Below are positions 914 through 18,895 of a stretch of DNA of 37,928 bases, piece by piece. Made by a program: the position numbers and the translations under genes. The stretch comes from Campylobacteraceae bacterium (lineage in GTDB: Bacteria > Campylobacterota > Campylobacteria > Campylobacterales > JALSKU01). Numbering within the stretch: the first letter of the stretch is position 1; each line of letters begins with the position of its first letter. The notes under the pieces are model-generated. The model worked only from the letters and a program-made list of their open reading frames with translations, ran no database searches and was not told the DNA's origin. The stretch lies in contig JALWUQ010000074.1 of NCBI GenBank assembly GCA_026993075.1, forward strand, positions 1 to 37,928. Direction: 5' to 3'.

Positions 914-3481
914 TCAAGGTACGAAATGTAAAATCTCAGGTTCGCTGTAATTTGGTACATTATCATAAGTAAAAATACTATAATATTTCTCTTTATCAAG
1001 TGAGCCGAATGTATCATAAGTATAATCATCTTTTCCGCCGTATATCTTAACACCATCCATAAAGTTTTTGGGAGGATGAAAAGAGTTTCTGACAACATAA
1101 ACTCCGATGAAATCTTCATCTTTTGGGTTTTTCCATGATAATTTTATCCTCCCTTTGTCTATCTTGTTTGCAAGATTAGTTACTTTGGATACAGGTGTTT
1201 TTCTCCTATTTATGTATTCTATGATTAATTTTGGCTTTATACCCCACTTAACTATTCTGTTTTTTACATTACTTTGAGTTGAAGTTGGTTTTATGATGAT
1301 TTCAAGTCTTTTGCTGTTTGCATGGATATTTTCAAGTGATAATTTTGAGAGGGTGTCAAATATAAAATAATGTTTTTCTCTTTTTTTAAGATCAACATCT
1401 CTTATTTCATAACCAATATATTCTACTCTTTCTCTATTTTTTATATCTTCATAACTTAAAATAATATCATTATCCAAGAGTTCAAGATAAAAACTTATAC
1501 CTTTTGATTTTGTGTAAACTGTTTGATTGCTAAGTTCTATATATGCTCTTGTTATAACTGTCGTACATGAACTTGGAAGAGTTGAGAGATCATACTCTAA
1601 ATGCCCATAGATTTTATTGCCATCTTTATTGTATCCGCTTTCAAACTGGGATTTTTTAAGGTTTTGACTAATAGATTCGGCAATATTTGGTTCTATTTCT
1701 ATTTTTTGTGAAGGTATTGTGTATTTGATTTCGAGCATAGGACGGTAGTGAAGTCCACCTCCATAGTTTCCGTATCCTATATCAAACTGCATCATTTGAG
1801 AATCTTCGCCATAAGGCAGTGTTTTTGGTCCATCAACTCTAAAAACTGCTTTGTTTTTTATGAGTTCTTTTTGGAGCAAGGAGCATTGGTAAGAGGAAAA
1901 TTCCCAATAATTCCATATACCCTGAGTTAAAGACTGAGACTTGATAGCATCACCTATAACCTGGATACAAGGTGCATTTTCTACTTGAGCAAAATCAGCC
2001 ACATCATTTATGTCATCATTATCAAGCAAGCTCAAATTCCACTCACCAAATCTTTCTATTTTTGCCGCAACTCTGTTCATGGGATAAAGATGAAGTCTTG
2101 CTTTTTTTATGATGGCATTTTTTGGAATGGAACTTGTATCATAGCAAATAAGTGCGTTGCATATACCTTTTGTTTTGTTTATACCGACAAAAAGTGAATT
2201 ATTGCCAAAATGAGATCTATTTGTCTCATTCATATTTTCTCCGACATAGCCTGTCTCGTTTTTTAAGGCAAATAACATTTTTGAAAATTCATCTTTTTCC
2301 AAACCAGTTTTTACCTTTACAACAGGAGCAAAAGGAGATCGTAAATTTGTTTGTTTGTTTACCGCTCTTATGGTGTAGTAGTAAGTGGTGGCAGACTCTA
2401 ACTCAATGTCTTTAAAAGTGTGCTCTTTTGTTATGCCTACTATGTTTTGGATTTCGCAAGAGGCTTTATCTTTTGTATTTCTATAAATCTCAAAATAAAT
2501 ATCATTTCTTAATTCATAATCCCACCGGAGTTTTAAAAAAGTCTCTTCTACACATTGTATGGTAAAGTTATCAACTCTTTTAGGAGCTAATGAAGAGTAA
2601 TTGATAGTCTCTTTAAAAGCTTCTAAGAGTGCGGGAATGTTTTCATTGATACTGCTACTCATAACTTTCATATAATCTGGTATATTTTTAGTACCGACTT
2701 CTACAACGATAGCTTTGATGCCTTTTGAGTAATAGTACTCTCTACCGCTTCCGCTTATGAGTTTAGCAGGTGGTTTGCCTCTGTGTATACCATAGTTTCT
2801 ACCTGTTACTTTGTGTATTTTTTCACTCATATTAGCACATATTGTGTTAAGATCTGTTCCATCTATCTCTTGTTCGTGTCGAAATTTATGAGCTGGAAAA
2901 AATACATTTCCCTGCGAATGATAATCAAGTGCAATGGTTATATTATTATGAGTATCGACAAACTCTTTTATAGCTTTTGTCTCAGGTTCGCTAAATGCTT
3001 CTTCACCGCCATAAACATTTGAGCTCATTTGAGAAGTTTTAACAAAGCCTATGGAAAAATTTCTGTTTAAATCCACTCCATAAGAGCCGTCTTTGTTTTT
3101 CTTTCTGTTTTTTCTCCAAAATGAAAAGTGCTTTCTTGAATACTCAAATCCGTCAGGATTTAGGCAAGGTACCATATATAAAGTAGATCTTTTTAAATAC
3201 TCTTTTATTTGGGGATTTGTATCAAAATTATTTAAAATATATGTTATAAATTTTAAACATAGCTCATGTCCTATCCACTCTCTTGCATGTATGGTTCCTG
3301 TAAAAAGCAGTGCCGGTTTTGTACTCTCATTTTCTATATCAAACGATAAAGTTGCTAAAACAATATCTCTGTTTTCATGAGTTTTGCCTATGCTTTTTAC
3401 TTGTAAAATATCTGGAAATTTATCAGATAAATTTTTTAAAAGTTTTGTGCCTTCATCATAGGAAAGATATTGATTTTTCAA
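914..3481 (-). CDS. M14-family zinc carboxypeptidase with Fn3 and DNRLRE-like beta-sandwich modules and a C-terminal Fn3-like module; no signal peptide
   Basis: M14 motifs HAREWIGHE (Zn ligands), NPDG, DLNRNF, ALDYHSQGN (Zn His), VVEVG (catalytic Glu); 'NALICYDTSSIPKNAIIKKARLHLY' DNRLRE-like; Fn3-like 'TTYYYTIRAVN' and 'DEDFIGVYVVRN..'. Start codon is TTG with AAAGGAA upstream; the gene directly abuts the TAG of the upstream gene. Confidence 0.88.
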   Translation of the reverse strand: MKNQYLSYDEGTKLLKNLSDKFPDILQVKSIGKTHENRDIVLATLSFDIENESTKPALLFTGTIHAREWIGHELCLKFITYILNNFDTNPQIKEYLKRSTLYMVPCLNPDGFEYSRKHFSFWRKNRKKNKDGSYGVDLNRNFSIGFVKTSQMSSNVYGGEEAFSEPETKAIKEFVDTHNNITIALDYHSQGNVFFPAHKFRHEQEIDGTDLNTICANMSEKIHKVTGRNYGIHRGKPPAKLISGSGREYYYSKGIKAIVVEVGTKNIPDYMKVMSSSINENIPALLEAFKETINYSSLAPKRVDNFTIQCVEETFLKLRWDYELRNDIYFEIYRNTKDKASCEIQNIVGITKEHTFKDIELESATTYYYTIRAVNKQTNLRSPFAPVVKVKTGLEKDEFSKMLFALKNETGYVGENMNETNRSHFGNNSLFVGINKTKGICNALICYDTSSIPKNAIIKKARLHLYPMNRVAAKIERFGEWNLSLLDNDDINDVADFAQVENAPCIQVIGDAIKSQSLTQGIWNYWEFSSYQCSLLQKELIKNKAVFRVDGPKTLPYGEDSQMMQFDIGYGNYGGGLHYRPMLEIKYTIPSQKIEIEPNIAESISQNLKKSQFESGYNKDGNKIYGHLEYDLSTLPSSCTTVITRAYIELSNQTVYTKSKGISFYLELLDNDIILSYEDIKNRERVEYIGYEIRDVDLKKREKHYFIFDTLSKLSLENIHANSKRLEIIIKPTSTQSNVKNRIVKWGIKPKLIIEYINRRKTPVSKVTNLANKIDKGRIKLSWKNPKDEDFIGVYVVRNSFHPPKNFMDGVKIYGGKDDYTYDTFGSLDKEKYYSIFTYDNVPNYSEPEILHFVP

Positions 3482-4897
3482 CTATTTATTCCTTTTTTCT
3501 AAAAATTCATTCCATTTTTTCATAAGAGAATCAACAATACTTTTAGAAATACCTTTTATCTCAAGGAGCGCTTCAGGTTCAAACTGTAGAGTTTGCACTA
3601 TCTTTGAATGTTTCAAATCATTTAGTATAGCTTTTGCTTTTTTCTCTCCTATGCCTTTTACAGAAGTTAAGAATTTGTGTATCTCTTTATGGGTTAATCG
3701 TATCTTTTTAGATGCTTCATCTCCACTTGCAAAAGGAGTCTTTTCTCTTTTAAGATTTTTTACTTTCATAGACTTTATGCTCTTTAACGCAAATCTATCT
3801 TGAAAATTCCAAGTTTCACTCGGCCACTCTTCAAAAAGTTTTTTTCTCACATCAAACATTTGATATTTTTTATCAAGCTTATGAAGATATACTTTCTCTT
3901 TTCCAAAAGTTTTTTTCTTTTTCCCAAAATATGCTCCATCAAAACTTGGAGAATATTTTCCAAAATTTATATGTCTCATAGTTCTTAAAAGTGAACTGTC
4001 TATTTTGCCGAGTTCTTCCCAGTTAAACATAGGAATATGAGGTTTTCTCAAAGTTTTACTACTTAAACTCCACATCAAGTATTCTCCTATCCAGTCTCTT
4101 ACATAAGGAAATGCCGCAAACGCTGTCGCACATTCGAGTATCCTTACTTTGGAATCTTTGCCATAAGCAATATCGCATGCCCAGTATTCAGCTTTTGCTG
4201 CCTTGCTTGTCTTAACTGCTAAATCAAGAACAGATTTTGGAACATTTTGATAATCCATACTCCCGCCCTGAGAGGTATTTGTAAGCCATTCACCCTTAGG
4301 CGGTCTTCTCCAAAAAGCACATACAGGTTTGTGGCCTATTAGCATGACTCTGATATCAGCTTGCATTGGTATGAAATCCTGTATATACATAGGGTGATAT
4401 TTTTTCTTATCAAAAAGTTTTACAGCCTCTTTTTTACTGTCAACTTTATGTACGAAATAACCGCCATAGTTTGAAGGACCGTAGCTTCTTTTTATGATTT
4501 TTGGATATTTTGTTTTTTCTAAAAATTTATACCCCTTGCCTCTATCATAAAATATATGAGTTCTTGGGATTGGCAAGTGGTATTTCCATGCAAATCTTGT
4601 AACATTCTCTTTTGATTTATTGGAAAATTGAGTATCCAAAGAGGGGATAAATCTTACACCGGGCAATTCTCTTGCAATCTCTCTAAAAGTTTCATAAGCA
4701 GTTGCAGGGATATTGCCTATGAGTACATCAATCTTTTTCTTTTTAACTTCTTTTATAAATCTGTCTTTATCATTTTTCCAATGATAAGTCACACTCTCTA
4801 TCTTGTCAGGCCATCCTCTAAAGTTGGAATGGTCAAAAAACCTAAGTACATAATCCAAATACAAAAATCCGAGTTTTGGTAATTTTTTCTTACTCAT
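3482..4897 (-). CDS. ATP-grasp (RimK-like) ligase fused to a C-terminal tandem helix-hairpin-helix domain
   Basis: ATP-grasp segments 'YPKIIKRSYGPSNYGG', 'DIRVMLIGHKPVCAFWRRPPKGEWLTNTSQGGS', 'ACDIAYGKDSKVRILECATAF'; C-terminus 'VKGIGEKKAKAIL...EALLEIKGISKSIVDSL' resembles (HhH)2. Confidence 0.82.
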   Translation of the reverse strand: MSKKKLPKLGFLYLDYVLRFFDHSNFRGWPDKIESVTYHWKNDKDRFIKEVKKKKIDVLIGNIPATAYETFREIARELPGVRFIPSLDTQFSNKSKENVTRFAWKYHLPIPRTHIFYDRGKGYKFLEKTKYPKIIKRSYGPSNYGGYFVHKVDSKKEAVKLFDKKKYHPMYIQDFIPMQADIRVMLIGHKPVCAFWRRPPKGEWLTNTSQGGSMDYQNVPKSVLDLAVKTSKAAKAEYWACDIAYGKDSKVRILECATAFAAFPYVRDWIGEYLMWSLSSKTLRKPHIPMFNWEELGKIDSSLLRTMRHINFGKYSPSFDGAYFGKKKKTFGKEKVYLHKLDKKYQMFDVRKKLFEEWPSETWNFQDRFALKSIKSMKVKNLKREKTPFASGDEASKKIRLTHKEIHKFLTSVKGIGEKKAKAILNDLKHSKIVQTLQFEPEALLEIKGISKSIVDSLMKKWNEFLEKRNK

Positions 4898-5892: not shown

Positions 5893-6990
5893 ATGAAATT
5901 TTTTAAAGAGTTAAAACAACTTGTGGAGATAAATTCTTATACCGAGAATAAAGTAGGAGTTGATAAAAATGGAGAAATTTATATAACAAAACTCATCCCT
6001 TTGGGGTTCGAATATAAAATATACAAAAGAGAAAATATAGGTAATCATTTACTTTTTACCTCACCAAAAAAAGAGGGTAAAAAATTGCTTCTTTTGGGTC
6101 ATATGGATACAGTTTTTCCAAAAGATATATTTGAAAAATATAGTGAAGATGAGACTTGGGTGTATGGACCTGGAGTTTGTGATATGAAAGGTGGTAATAT
6201 CGTAGCTATTGAAGCCCTTAGAAATATCTTTCATAAGTTTGGCAAGATTGAAAATATTGATTTTTTATTGGTAAGTGATGAAGAAGGGGGAAGTGACGAC
6301 TCTAAGTTTGTTACTTCCAAAGTGGCAAAAGAGTATGACTATGCACTTGTATATGAAGCTGCTGGGAAAAATATGGAAGTGGTAATTGCCAGAAAAGGTG
6401 CAGGGACTTTTTATGTAGATATAAAAGGCAAAGCAGCACATGCAGGCAACAACTATGCTTTGGGGGTTGATGCAAACTTAGAAGCAAGTTACAAACTTCA
6501 AGAGTTAGTGAAACTGACTGATACGAAAAAAGGTACAACTTTAAATGTGGGTAAGATAGAAGGAGGTGTTGGTGCAAACACTATATCTCCTCATGCAAAA
6601 ATGACTTTTGAGATAAGATACACAAATACAAATGAAAGAGATAGACTTGTAAAAGAGATCAACAAAATCATATCAACTTGTTATGTAAAAGGTACCAGAT
6701 CAACTCTTAGTGGTGGAATACAAAGAGATGTAATGCAACCGACTAAAGAGCAAAGTGAATTTTTAGAAAATATAGAAAAATTTATCACTAAAAAGCTACT
6801 TAAAGAAAAAAGAGGCGGAGTCAGTGATGCAAATATAGTAGCTTCCCAAAGGGTACCTGTACTTGATGGTTTTGGTCCTTTTGGAGATGGAGATCACACA
6901 AAAAAAGAAAGAGCATTAAAAAGCAGTTTCAAACAGAGGATAGAGCTTAGCACAAAGATTTTTGAAGGAGTATTAAAACACAAAATATAA
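5893..6990 (+). CDS. M20-family metallopeptidase, glutamate carboxypeptidase (CPG2)-like
   Basis: 'LLLLGHMDTVFPKD', 'GPGVCDMKGG', 'LLVSDEEGGSDDS', 'GKAAHAGNN', 'GDGDHT' M20 motifs; RBS AGGAG upstream. Confidence 0.9.
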   Translation: MKFFKELKQLVEINSYTENKVGVDKNGEIYITKLIPLGFEYKIYKRENIGNHLLFTSPKKEGKKLLLLGHMDTVFPKDIFEKYSEDETWVYGPGVCDMKGGNIVAIEALRNIFHKFGKIENIDFLLVSDEEGGSDDSKFVTSKVAKEYDYALVYEAAGKNMEVVIARKGAGTFYVDIKGKAAHAGNNYALGVDANLEASYKLQELVKLTDTKKGTTLNVGKIEGGVGANTISPHAKMTFEIRYTNTNERDRLVKEINKIISTCYVKGTRSTLSGGIQRDVMQPTKEQSEFLENIEKFITKKLLKEKRGGVSDANIVASQRVPVLDGFGPFGDGDHTKKERALKSSFKQRIELSTKIFEGVLKHKI

Positions 6991-7028: not shown

Positions 7029-7751
7029 TTAACCGGTATTTTGTATGCTTTTTTCAAAAAACAAGTGGGTTAGATATATTACGAAAAAAACTTGAAAAAA
7101 GAGTCCTAAAATGGGTATTAGCGAGATTATATAAAATATCAAAGTAGTTGCTATGAAGCTTTTTTTCTCTTTTTGGGTTATGAGTGTATATCTTTTGTAA
7201 TTTTCTATGTTTGAGCCTATGTCTATAATCAAGAGGTTGTGAAAAAGGTAGTAAAAAGGTATATTAAATATAAAAAAGTTTACCCCCGGTACTATTAGAA
7301 GTGGGATTGCAACAAATATAAGAAATATAAAAATACTGACAGTTTTGACATATAACCATACAGATTTGCCAAAATCTATCTCTCCTCTTATAAAATTGGG
7401 ATAGTATTTTTTCTGTAAGGTTTTTACAATGTATGGTGTAAAAAAGCCTATGACAATAATAGCGATAATGACTGAAAAAAGCACTATCAAAATAGTACCG
7501 AAAAGATAAAAAAAAGTTATCAATACCCACTTTACAAGAGCTAAGGTAAATATGTAATTAACAATAGGATGGATGTCAGGATTAATATTTGTAAAGTTAT
7601 TGCCGTTTGAATTTAAGAAATTAATAAATTCACTGCCGCTATAGAGAAAAAAGCTTCCAAATACCAAAAAAGAGATTAAAAAAGGAAGAGTTGAAAGAAG
7701 TAAAAATTTTAGTGTAAAAAAATCTTCCAGACTCTTTTTTAGTGTGTTCAT
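7029..7751 (-). CDS. EI24 domain-containing inner-membrane protein
   Basis: 240 aa, multiple hydrophobic TM segments, EI24/CysZ-like layout; ATGA overlap with upstream gene. Confidence 0.7.
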   Translation of the reverse strand: MNTLKKSLEDFFTLKFLLLSTLPFLISFLVFGSFFLYSGSEFINFLNSNGNNFTNINPDIHPIVNYIFTLALVKWVLITFFYLFGTILIVLFSVIIAIIVIGFFTPYIVKTLQKKYYPNFIRGEIDFGKSVWLYVKTVSIFIFLIFVAIPLLIVPGVNFFIFNIPFYYLFHNLLIIDIGSNIENYKRYTLITQKEKKSFIATTLIFYIISLIPILGLFFQVFFVIYLTHLFFEKSIQNTG

Positions 7752-8455
7752 GCTATCTTTTGATATGCTTTTTCCAATTCTTTATATAATTGATTTGGAG
7801 TAATTTTTGGCTGTTCATTAATAATCTTATTCATAGTGATATTATCTTCGACATCACCCCATAATTTTTTATATGTTCCTTCTTTGTAACCGTTATCTTG
7901 TCTAAATTTATTTAGTACATTTTTTCCAACATAAACTTTATACAGTGAATATAAGTTTAAACCGCAGTTGTGAGCTACTGTAAAATACTCGCTTAAAATC
8001 ATCTCAAAAGGATTATTGTGTATCCCTGAGGTTATATGTATAATTCTTTCTACTTGATTGATGATTTCCATTTGATTTACATTTTTTATATTTTTTGGCT
8101 CTTTGCAAAATGTTTTAAAGCTTTTGTTATCCATAATATATGAGGTGATTTCATCAATTCCGCCTATTTTGTTATTGTGATAATATTCAAGCGCCAAACT
8201 CATAATAAAGTGCCAAATATCAATAACTTCTATCTGTATATTTTGCCAGTCAGGAGAGCCATTTATATTTTTCCAGTGTTTCCATGTGAAGCTGTCTATC
8301 AACTCGGTACACTCCATATAAATACATCTTTTCCAGCTGATTATACGGTCATATTTATTGTATCCGCTTTCCCATCCTTTTCCATTTGTATCATCATTTA
8401 ATGTTTGTTGCATTTCAAGCATAGTTTTTAGCATTTGTTCATTATTTAAGTTCAT
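7748..8455 (-). CDS. dut: Dimeric dUTP diphosphatase (Campylobacter-type)
   Basis: 'WKRCIYMECTELIDSFTWKHWK' and 'IEVIDIWHFIMSLALE' MazG-like/dimeric dUTPase helical motifs. Confidence 0.88.
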   Translation of the reverse strand: MNLNNEQMLKTMLEMQQTLNDDTNGKGWESGYNKYDRIISWKRCIYMECTELIDSFTWKHWKNINGSPDWQNIQIEVIDIWHFIMSLALEYYHNNKIGGIDEITSYIMDNKSFKTFCKEPKNIKNVNQMEIINQVERIIHITSGIHNNPFEMILSEYFTVAHNCGLNLYSLYKVYVGKNVLNKFRQDNGYKEGTYKKLWGDVEDNITMNKIINEQPKITPNQLYKELEKAYQKIA

Positions 8456-18819: not shown

Positions 18820-18895
18820 TGGTGGCCAGAGACGGAATCGAACCGCCGACACGGTGATTTTCAGTCACCTGCTCTACCGACTGAGCTATCTAGCC
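18820..18895 (-). tRNA. tRNA-Phe (GAA)
   Basis: Reverse complement GGCTAGATAGCTCAGTCGGTAGAGCAGGTGACTGAAAATCACCGTGTCGGCGGTTCGATTCCGTCTCTGGCCACCA folds as cloverleaf; acceptor GGCTAGA/TCTGGCC; anticodon GAA; encoded CCA. Confidence 0.96.

Follow-up and report, generated by a model that had tools for sequence, protein, structure and literature searches.

A known bacterial ATP-grasp enzyme that adds glutamate reversibly is RimK, which acts on ribosomal protein S6 together with RimB. The tubulin TTLL glutamylases and CCP deglutamylases pair an ATP-grasp-fold writer with an acid-specific M14 eraser in the cytosol. RimK, MptN, LysX and ArgX, which are the closest relatives of both ligases described here, add glutamate or aminoadipate to carboxylates. 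The balance between ligase and protease in the RimK system has been described as a paradigm common to tubulin as well (PMC11957791).

The window analysed here, a 37,928-nucleotide contig of a Campylobacteraceae bacterium (JALWUQ010000074.1, assembly GCA_026993075.1), encodes two RimK-fold ligases, grasp1 and grasp2, together with an M14 and an M20 metallopeptidase (Table 1). It resembles RimABK, the S6 polyglutamylation system, in having a RimK-fold ligase, for which RimB is the cognate protease in RimABK. It differs in that there are two ligases, one of them with a helix-hairpin-helix (HhH) tail and the motif ECATAF, and in that the putative erasers are M14 and M20 metallopeptidases, in place of the aspartic protease RimB. 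The alpha-carboxylate amino-acid ligases LysX, ArgX and MptN have the same fold, and among solved structures and curated families they are the closest to both module ligases, but no LysW-type carrier protein was seen with the module, and grasp1 has an extra conserved segment in addition to the HhH tail. With the TTLL/CCP cycle the module shares an ATP-grasp-fold writer and a predicted cytosolic, acid-specific M14 eraser (PMC11957791), although its M14 is of the CPA/CPB/CPT type and not CCP, and the system is bacterial and has no tubulin. Gene content, co-occurrence, conserved active-site residues and the HhH fold are established directly here. Tentatively, we read grasp1 as one half of a RimK-type ligase pair whose module would write and erase glutamate, or another acidic amino acid, inside the cell; the tail of grasp1 would serve for docking.

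Table 1. Features of the module and their positions in the window
Feature	Position	Strand	Remarks
M14 zinc carboxypeptidase, 855 aa; C-terminal part fn3 and DNRLRE-like	914..3481	-	directly downstream of grasp1
Arg247 of M14, at position 255 of carboxypeptidase A in the alignment	2741..2743	-	CPA4 alignment
grasp1, ATP-grasp protein of RimK fold ending in (HhH)2	3482..4897	-	intact ORF, ATG start, 471 aa
grasp1 (HhH)2 domain, residues 403-470	3488..3691	-	first hairpin KGIGEKK, second EIKGISKS
grasp1 variable, mostly disordered linker, residues 326-402	3692..3922	-	low pLDDT; low identity
grasp1 conserved extension behind the ATP-grasp core, residues 286-325	3923..4042	-	PxFNWEELGK...LRTxRHIxFGxYxPSxDGAYF
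grasp1 ECATAF, residues 255-260	4118..4135	-	near-invariant substitute for the usual E-x-N metal-binding motif
grasp1 RimK/ATP-grasp core, residues 105-250	4148..4585	-	Pfam RimK E 4.5e-12; ATP-site residues kept; Foldseek
grasp2, ATP-grasp ligase of canonical RimK/MptN-like type, 304 aa	4890..5804	-	upstream of grasp1, 8-bp overlap
M20 peptidase	5893..6990	+	divergent from ligase operon; carboxypeptidase G2 is the closest solved relative

A conserved module of four genes

grasp1 belongs to a conserved module of four genes, M20, grasp2, grasp1 and M14, an apparently undescribed set found in marine bacteria. This context, missed by the first-pass annotation, is far more informative about function than the tail. 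The same four genes were present, amid changing neighbours, in most sampled loci of Sulfurovum, other Campylobacterota and Vibrionaceae, many of these loci coming from MAGs, and in most module loci M20 kept its place next to grasp2/grasp1. Among 397 sampled Campylobacterota genomes, grasp1 was found in 53, grasp2 in 53 and M14 in 54, with all three in 51; each was spread across 26 of the 68 genera. Pairwise Fisher tests gave p values of 1e-59 to 1e-61 without correction for kinship, and as the genomes are not independent samples these values overstate the strength of the association. A cleaner test is provided by the Sulfurimonas-type genomes, in which grasp1 lies 720-1430 kb from grasp2-M14 and yet co-occurs with them.

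There were exceptions: G225 lacked grasp2, G388 lacked grasp1, G007 lacked both grasp1 and M14, and G263 carried M14 alone. No grasp2 was found in several Sulfurimonas MAGs with grasp1 linked to efp (elongation factor P), some MAGs being incomplete. G045 retained only a fragment of grasp1 with stops, and neither partner, and in Sulfurimonas indica (L083/G411) grasp1 was truncated and grasp2 absent. Both look like joint decay of the module genes.

Outside Campylobacterota, grasp1 was detected in 28 of 151 sampled genomes of Vibrionaceae, the family of Veronia, and in 0 of 320 from the remaining Gammaproteobacteria. The Vibrionaceae genes formed one group on the grasp1 tree (a quick build with SH-aLRT support only and a midpoint root), which is compatible with transfer between the phyla in either direction. 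Veronia nyctiphanis (L079/G404) carried the module ligases in two copies, and at one of its loci grasp1 and M14 were each broken into two ORFs, probably by frameshifts. The genome that contains the window is 1.9 Mb in size, and its closest grasp1 loci are in Campylobacterota MAGs. An Epsilonproteobacterial-type dUTPase (NF049964; window 7748-8455) and a tRNA-Phe gene (window 18820-18895) fit a Campylobacterota chromosome.

In the sampled module loci, no conserved gene of at least 60 aa was seen in the island beyond the four; at lengths from about 60-70 aa upwards, the island showed no conserved candidate for a graspetide-type precursor peptide gene beside an ATP-grasp gene. PADLOC models gave 0 matches for all four module proteins, and anti-phage defence was rejected on this basis. 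Phage cargo was rejected because the module was absent from the phage records and viral contigs searched, and a mobile plasmid because the sole match in the plasmid collection was a 2.1-Mb Photobacterium replicon typed as non-mobilizable. A literature search, in which subscription journals were mostly uncovered, returned no pairing of ATP-grasp with helix-hairpin-helix in the sense found here.

The ATP-grasp core of grasp1

The RimK-like ATP-grasp core claimed for grasp1 in the first-pass annotation was confirmed by Pfam RimK and by structure prediction. PF08443 exceeded its curated cut-off in both grasp1 and grasp2, and TIGR00768 remained under its cut-off for both (73.4 and 124.3 vs 143.4 bits). 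An AF2 model built with 38 orthologues had a RimK fold over approximately residues 1-280; the linker was poorly ordered and the helical tail formed a separate unit. The best Foldseek matches of the fold were ArgX, LysX and RimK, and identity to LysX/ArgX/MptN-type relatives was about 15-22% in the structural alignments. Median identity of 86 orthologues to the window grasp1 was 73-86% over residues 1-325, 41% in the linker and 35% in the HhH region. The extension at residues 286-325, with a median identity of 73% over the 86 orthologues and with invariant columns, lies outside the RimK/LysX match.

In the alignment of orthologues, K136, D181, R183, N207, D242 and E255 were invariant or nearly so. 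ECATAF was exact in 86 of 87 orthologues and read ECASAF in the remaining one, so that ECA was present in all 87; the corresponding E-x-N motif of grasp2 was EVN in 65 of 65 sequences. Because the metal-binding Asn is absent from grasp1, its catalysis may differ or be missing. Conceivably, grasp1 has no ligase activity and serves grasp2 as a nucleotide-binding regulatory or scaffold subunit, with all catalysis left to grasp2. The uniform replacement of E-x-N by E-C-A next to an intact motif in the paralogue is consistent with such a role, as is the strict co-occurrence with grasp2. However, the rest of the ATP site is invariant or almost invariant, few parts of the protein are as well conserved as the pocket motif ECATAFAAFPY-RDW, unlike in a decaying pseudoenzyme, and grasp1 is encoded far from grasp2 in Sulfurimonas; we regard a purely regulatory grasp1 as distinctly improbable. 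The near-invariant ATP-site residues point to a specialised enzyme or a nucleotide-binding subunit and not to a decaying one, and to judge from the alignments grasp1 is a specialised paralogue of grasp2 with a putatively altered metal site.

Partner enzymes and the predicted reaction

grasp2 matched Pfam RimK (3.5e-22) and, below the equivalog cut-off, NCBIfam MptN (6.9e-43); its solved relatives in the PDB were ArgX and RimK. The M14 protein matched Pfam M14 at 6.1e-59, and DNRLRE at 32.5 bits was just below the cut-off of 34. Its TTG start abuts the grasp1 stop at window position 3481, which suggests translational coupling. A pattern search found the zinc-binding and catalytic motifs HxRE, LNRN, DYHS and E[VI]G[TS] together in 58 of 60 homologues, and no signal-like N-terminus was seen in any of the 60; M14 is therefore predicted to share a compartment with the ligases.

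The specificity position of M14 (residue 255 in CPA numbering) was Arg in 59 of the 60 homologues and Lys in one. The sole Lys bearer was a lone M14 without either ligase (L142/G263). As a 61-residue M14 query gave no match in the PDB, the assignment of Arg255 rests on the CPA4 alignment and motif counting. In vertebrate M14 enzymes, namely carboxypeptidase O (CPO), Arg255 determines specificity for acidic C-termini (PMC9925722). The module M14 has the catalytic motifs and the basic residue 255 of a CPO-like, predicted acid-specific enzyme, and differs from CPO in being bacterial, cytosolic by sequence and extended by a long C-terminal beta-rich part. Where CPA has Tyr248 the residue was not conserved, and the fn3/DNRLRE-like part belongs to a kind often seen in surface proteins and usually extracellular. 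A cytosolic M14 from Burkholderia had been predicted to bind glutamate, yet its cleavage of a glutamyl substrate was poor (PMC3940198), so predictions of deglutamylation from the pocket may fail.

The best solved match of M20 was carboxypeptidase G2 (CPG2; 8.5e-27), an enzyme that releases glutamate. In the alignment of the two, by our reading with an offset of 22, CPG2 residues N275, R288 and R324 were matched and Lys208 had no aligned counterpart; we take all four to be functionally relevant in CPG2. A literature search on CPG2 K208/R324 found no paper.

Two ligases of a clade that adds glutamate or aminoadipate, an M14 predicted to be acid-specific and a CPG2-like M20, all in one compartment, suggest addition and removal of glutamate or another acidic residue; RimK/RimB and tubulin TTLL/CCP are precedents for such pairs (PMC11957791). 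In our tentative scheme grasp2, a canonical alpha-carboxylate amino-acid ligase, and grasp1 would activate the carboxylate of an acceptor with ATP and then add acidic residues, with glutamate as the presumed donor and a macromolecule as the presumed acceptor. The cytosolic M14, with Arg in its S1' pocket, and M20 would act in opposition, removing the added residues or recycling products. The HhH tail of grasp1 would dock on nucleic acid or a partner protein and so bring the ligase to its acceptor or complex, a role that would be helpful and not strictly required. The scheme draws on the retention of the island of four amid many different genomic surroundings in both Campylobacterota and Vibrionaceae, on the near-perfect co-occurrence of grasp1, grasp2 and M14 with their apparent joint decay, on the putative Arg255 of an M14 without signal peptide, on CPG2 as the best solved match of M20 and on the glutamate or aminoadipate additions made by relatives of the ligases. 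Against it count the lack of a fifth conserved gene in the island, the metal-binding Asn missing from grasp1, the unmatched CPG2 Lys208 in M20, the unconserved Tyr248 position and usually extracellular type of C-terminal part in M14, and the Burkholderia precedent (PMC3940198).

The acceptor could instead be a cofactor or other small molecule, whether folate-like, a peptide solute or a secondary metabolite, with the ligases building a glutamyl or other acidic tail that the peptidases trim or recycle, and the HhH domain making a protein contact only, for example with grasp2. MptN, the best-scoring family for grasp2 albeit under its cut-off, is a cofactor glutamate ligase, and CPG2, closest to M20, hydrolyses folate. 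HhH-fold domains bind proteins too, as do the NusA repeats that were among the Foldseek matches of the tail, and the carriers named in the sequence records are largely from lineages known in marine and vent habitats. Yet in the sampled loci the island is not accompanied by any other cofactor-pathway gene, and class A tails, described below, keep the GhG-x-K-K signature of nucleic-acid binders in their hairpins. A small-molecule acceptor is thus a possible, on balance unlikely, reading.

If the write/erase module for glutamate is real, it would be a second reversible glutamate system beside RimK/RimB, comprising acid-specific metallopeptidases and two ligases, one with an HhH tail, and its retention as a unit in two phyla would make reversible peptide tagging more frequent in bacteria than is known. 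It yields compact testable predictions: the specificity of M14, mass shifts of 129 Da and binding by the tail. We think it quite unlikely that the module is a bacterial counterpart of the eukaryotic TTLL/CCP polyglutamylation cycle, in which an HhH-tethered ATP-grasp writer and an acid-specific M14 eraser would reversibly glutamylate a nucleoid- or ribosome-associated protein of marine Campylobacterota and Vibrionaceae.

The helix-hairpin-helix tail

GhG-x-K-K hairpins are typical of contacts with the phosphate backbone. The tandem helix-hairpin-helix noticed at the C-terminus in the first-pass annotation was borne out by several methods. Pfam HHH_5 matched grasp1 residues 409-462 with 27.6 bits (cut-off 27), and a profile of 30 orthologous C-termini matched the HhH repeats of topoisomerase V at 1.3e-8, followed by XPF, RuvA and UvrC with weak E-values. 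AF2 folded residues 395-471 alone into five helices (mean pLDDT 87.7). Foldseek placed RuvA domain II first (TM 0.65-0.77, rmsd about 1.5 Å, probability 1.00), the E-values being only 0.09-1 for this very small domain, and then Hef/XPF, the NusA C-terminal repeats and Rad51 N-terminal domains. The tail thus contains two helix-hairpin-helix units in a five-helix fold. It is a true (HhH)2 as proposed, with its nearest relatives of the RuvA/TopoV type and not, as the supposed UvrC/XPF-type spacing implied, UvrC. It shares the fold and the GIGxKK hairpin with RuvA domain II and topoisomerase V, and differs from them in being joined to a peptide ligase through a disordered linker and in its divergent second hairpin. 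Many dozens of orthologues from two phyla, some of them in complete genomes, carry the same fusion, and an annotation or assembly artefact was rejected for this reason.

Tails fell into four classes: A, (HhH)2 as in the window; B, ComEA-like HHH_3; C, a degenerate single unit without GhG; and D, none (L139 and L064). In the first hairpin of class A tails, GhG-x-K-K, G21 was invariant and G23, K25 and K26 were each present in at least 90%. Classes B and C grouped within one Campylobacterota clade on the tree. Class A occurs in both Campylobacterota and Vibrionaceae, so the (HhH)2 tail is probably ancestral. At L139 (G417) the four-gene module is complete and grasp1 stops after 362 aa without an HhH tail; with all three partner genes present, the tail can evidently be lost from the module. 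By these comparisons an HhH-like tail is nearly always retained, and its detailed surface is not. The linker, described at first as basic, has a net charge of +10 in the window, is mildly positive in many Sulfurimonas and lies at roughly -5 to -10 in most other orthologues; the basic character is peculiar to the window's own genus, and an essential basic linker was rejected because the charge is not conserved.

The earlier suggestion was that the HhH domain brings the ligase to DNA, tRNA or the ribosome, there to modify a protein bound to nucleic acid. A true (HhH)2 fold nearest to RuvA, TopoV and XPF, the GIGxKK hairpin conserved in class A, and a tail that is probably ancestral and in one clade replaced by a ComEA-like HHH_3 rather than lost outright all agree with it, as does the position of grasp1 in Sulfurimonas, next to efp, which encodes a translation factor. 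But the linker charge is unconserved, class C tails lack GhG, two genes lack HhH altogether, one of them inside an otherwise intact module, and the efp adjacency is essentially one vertical event with a few loose ones. Nucleic-acid binding by class A tails is plausible from their hairpins; it cannot be essential where GhG or the whole tail is missing. Modification localised to nucleic acid is, to our mind, rather unlikely, and the tail best fits a docking element.

In Sulfurimonas-type genomes grasp1 lies 11-103 bp downstream of efp, apart from the other module genes (loci L024, L026, L027, L029, L030, L032, L034, L036, L038, L044, L064 and L083; genomes G017, G326, G136 and G350). EF-P is encoded in all 56 genomes that carry the module or part of it. 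EF-P as the target was set aside as a lead, because the adjacency is mainly confined to one genus and this ATP-grasp clade acts on acceptor carboxylates. efp was also found near module genes in L021, L022, L039 and G388.
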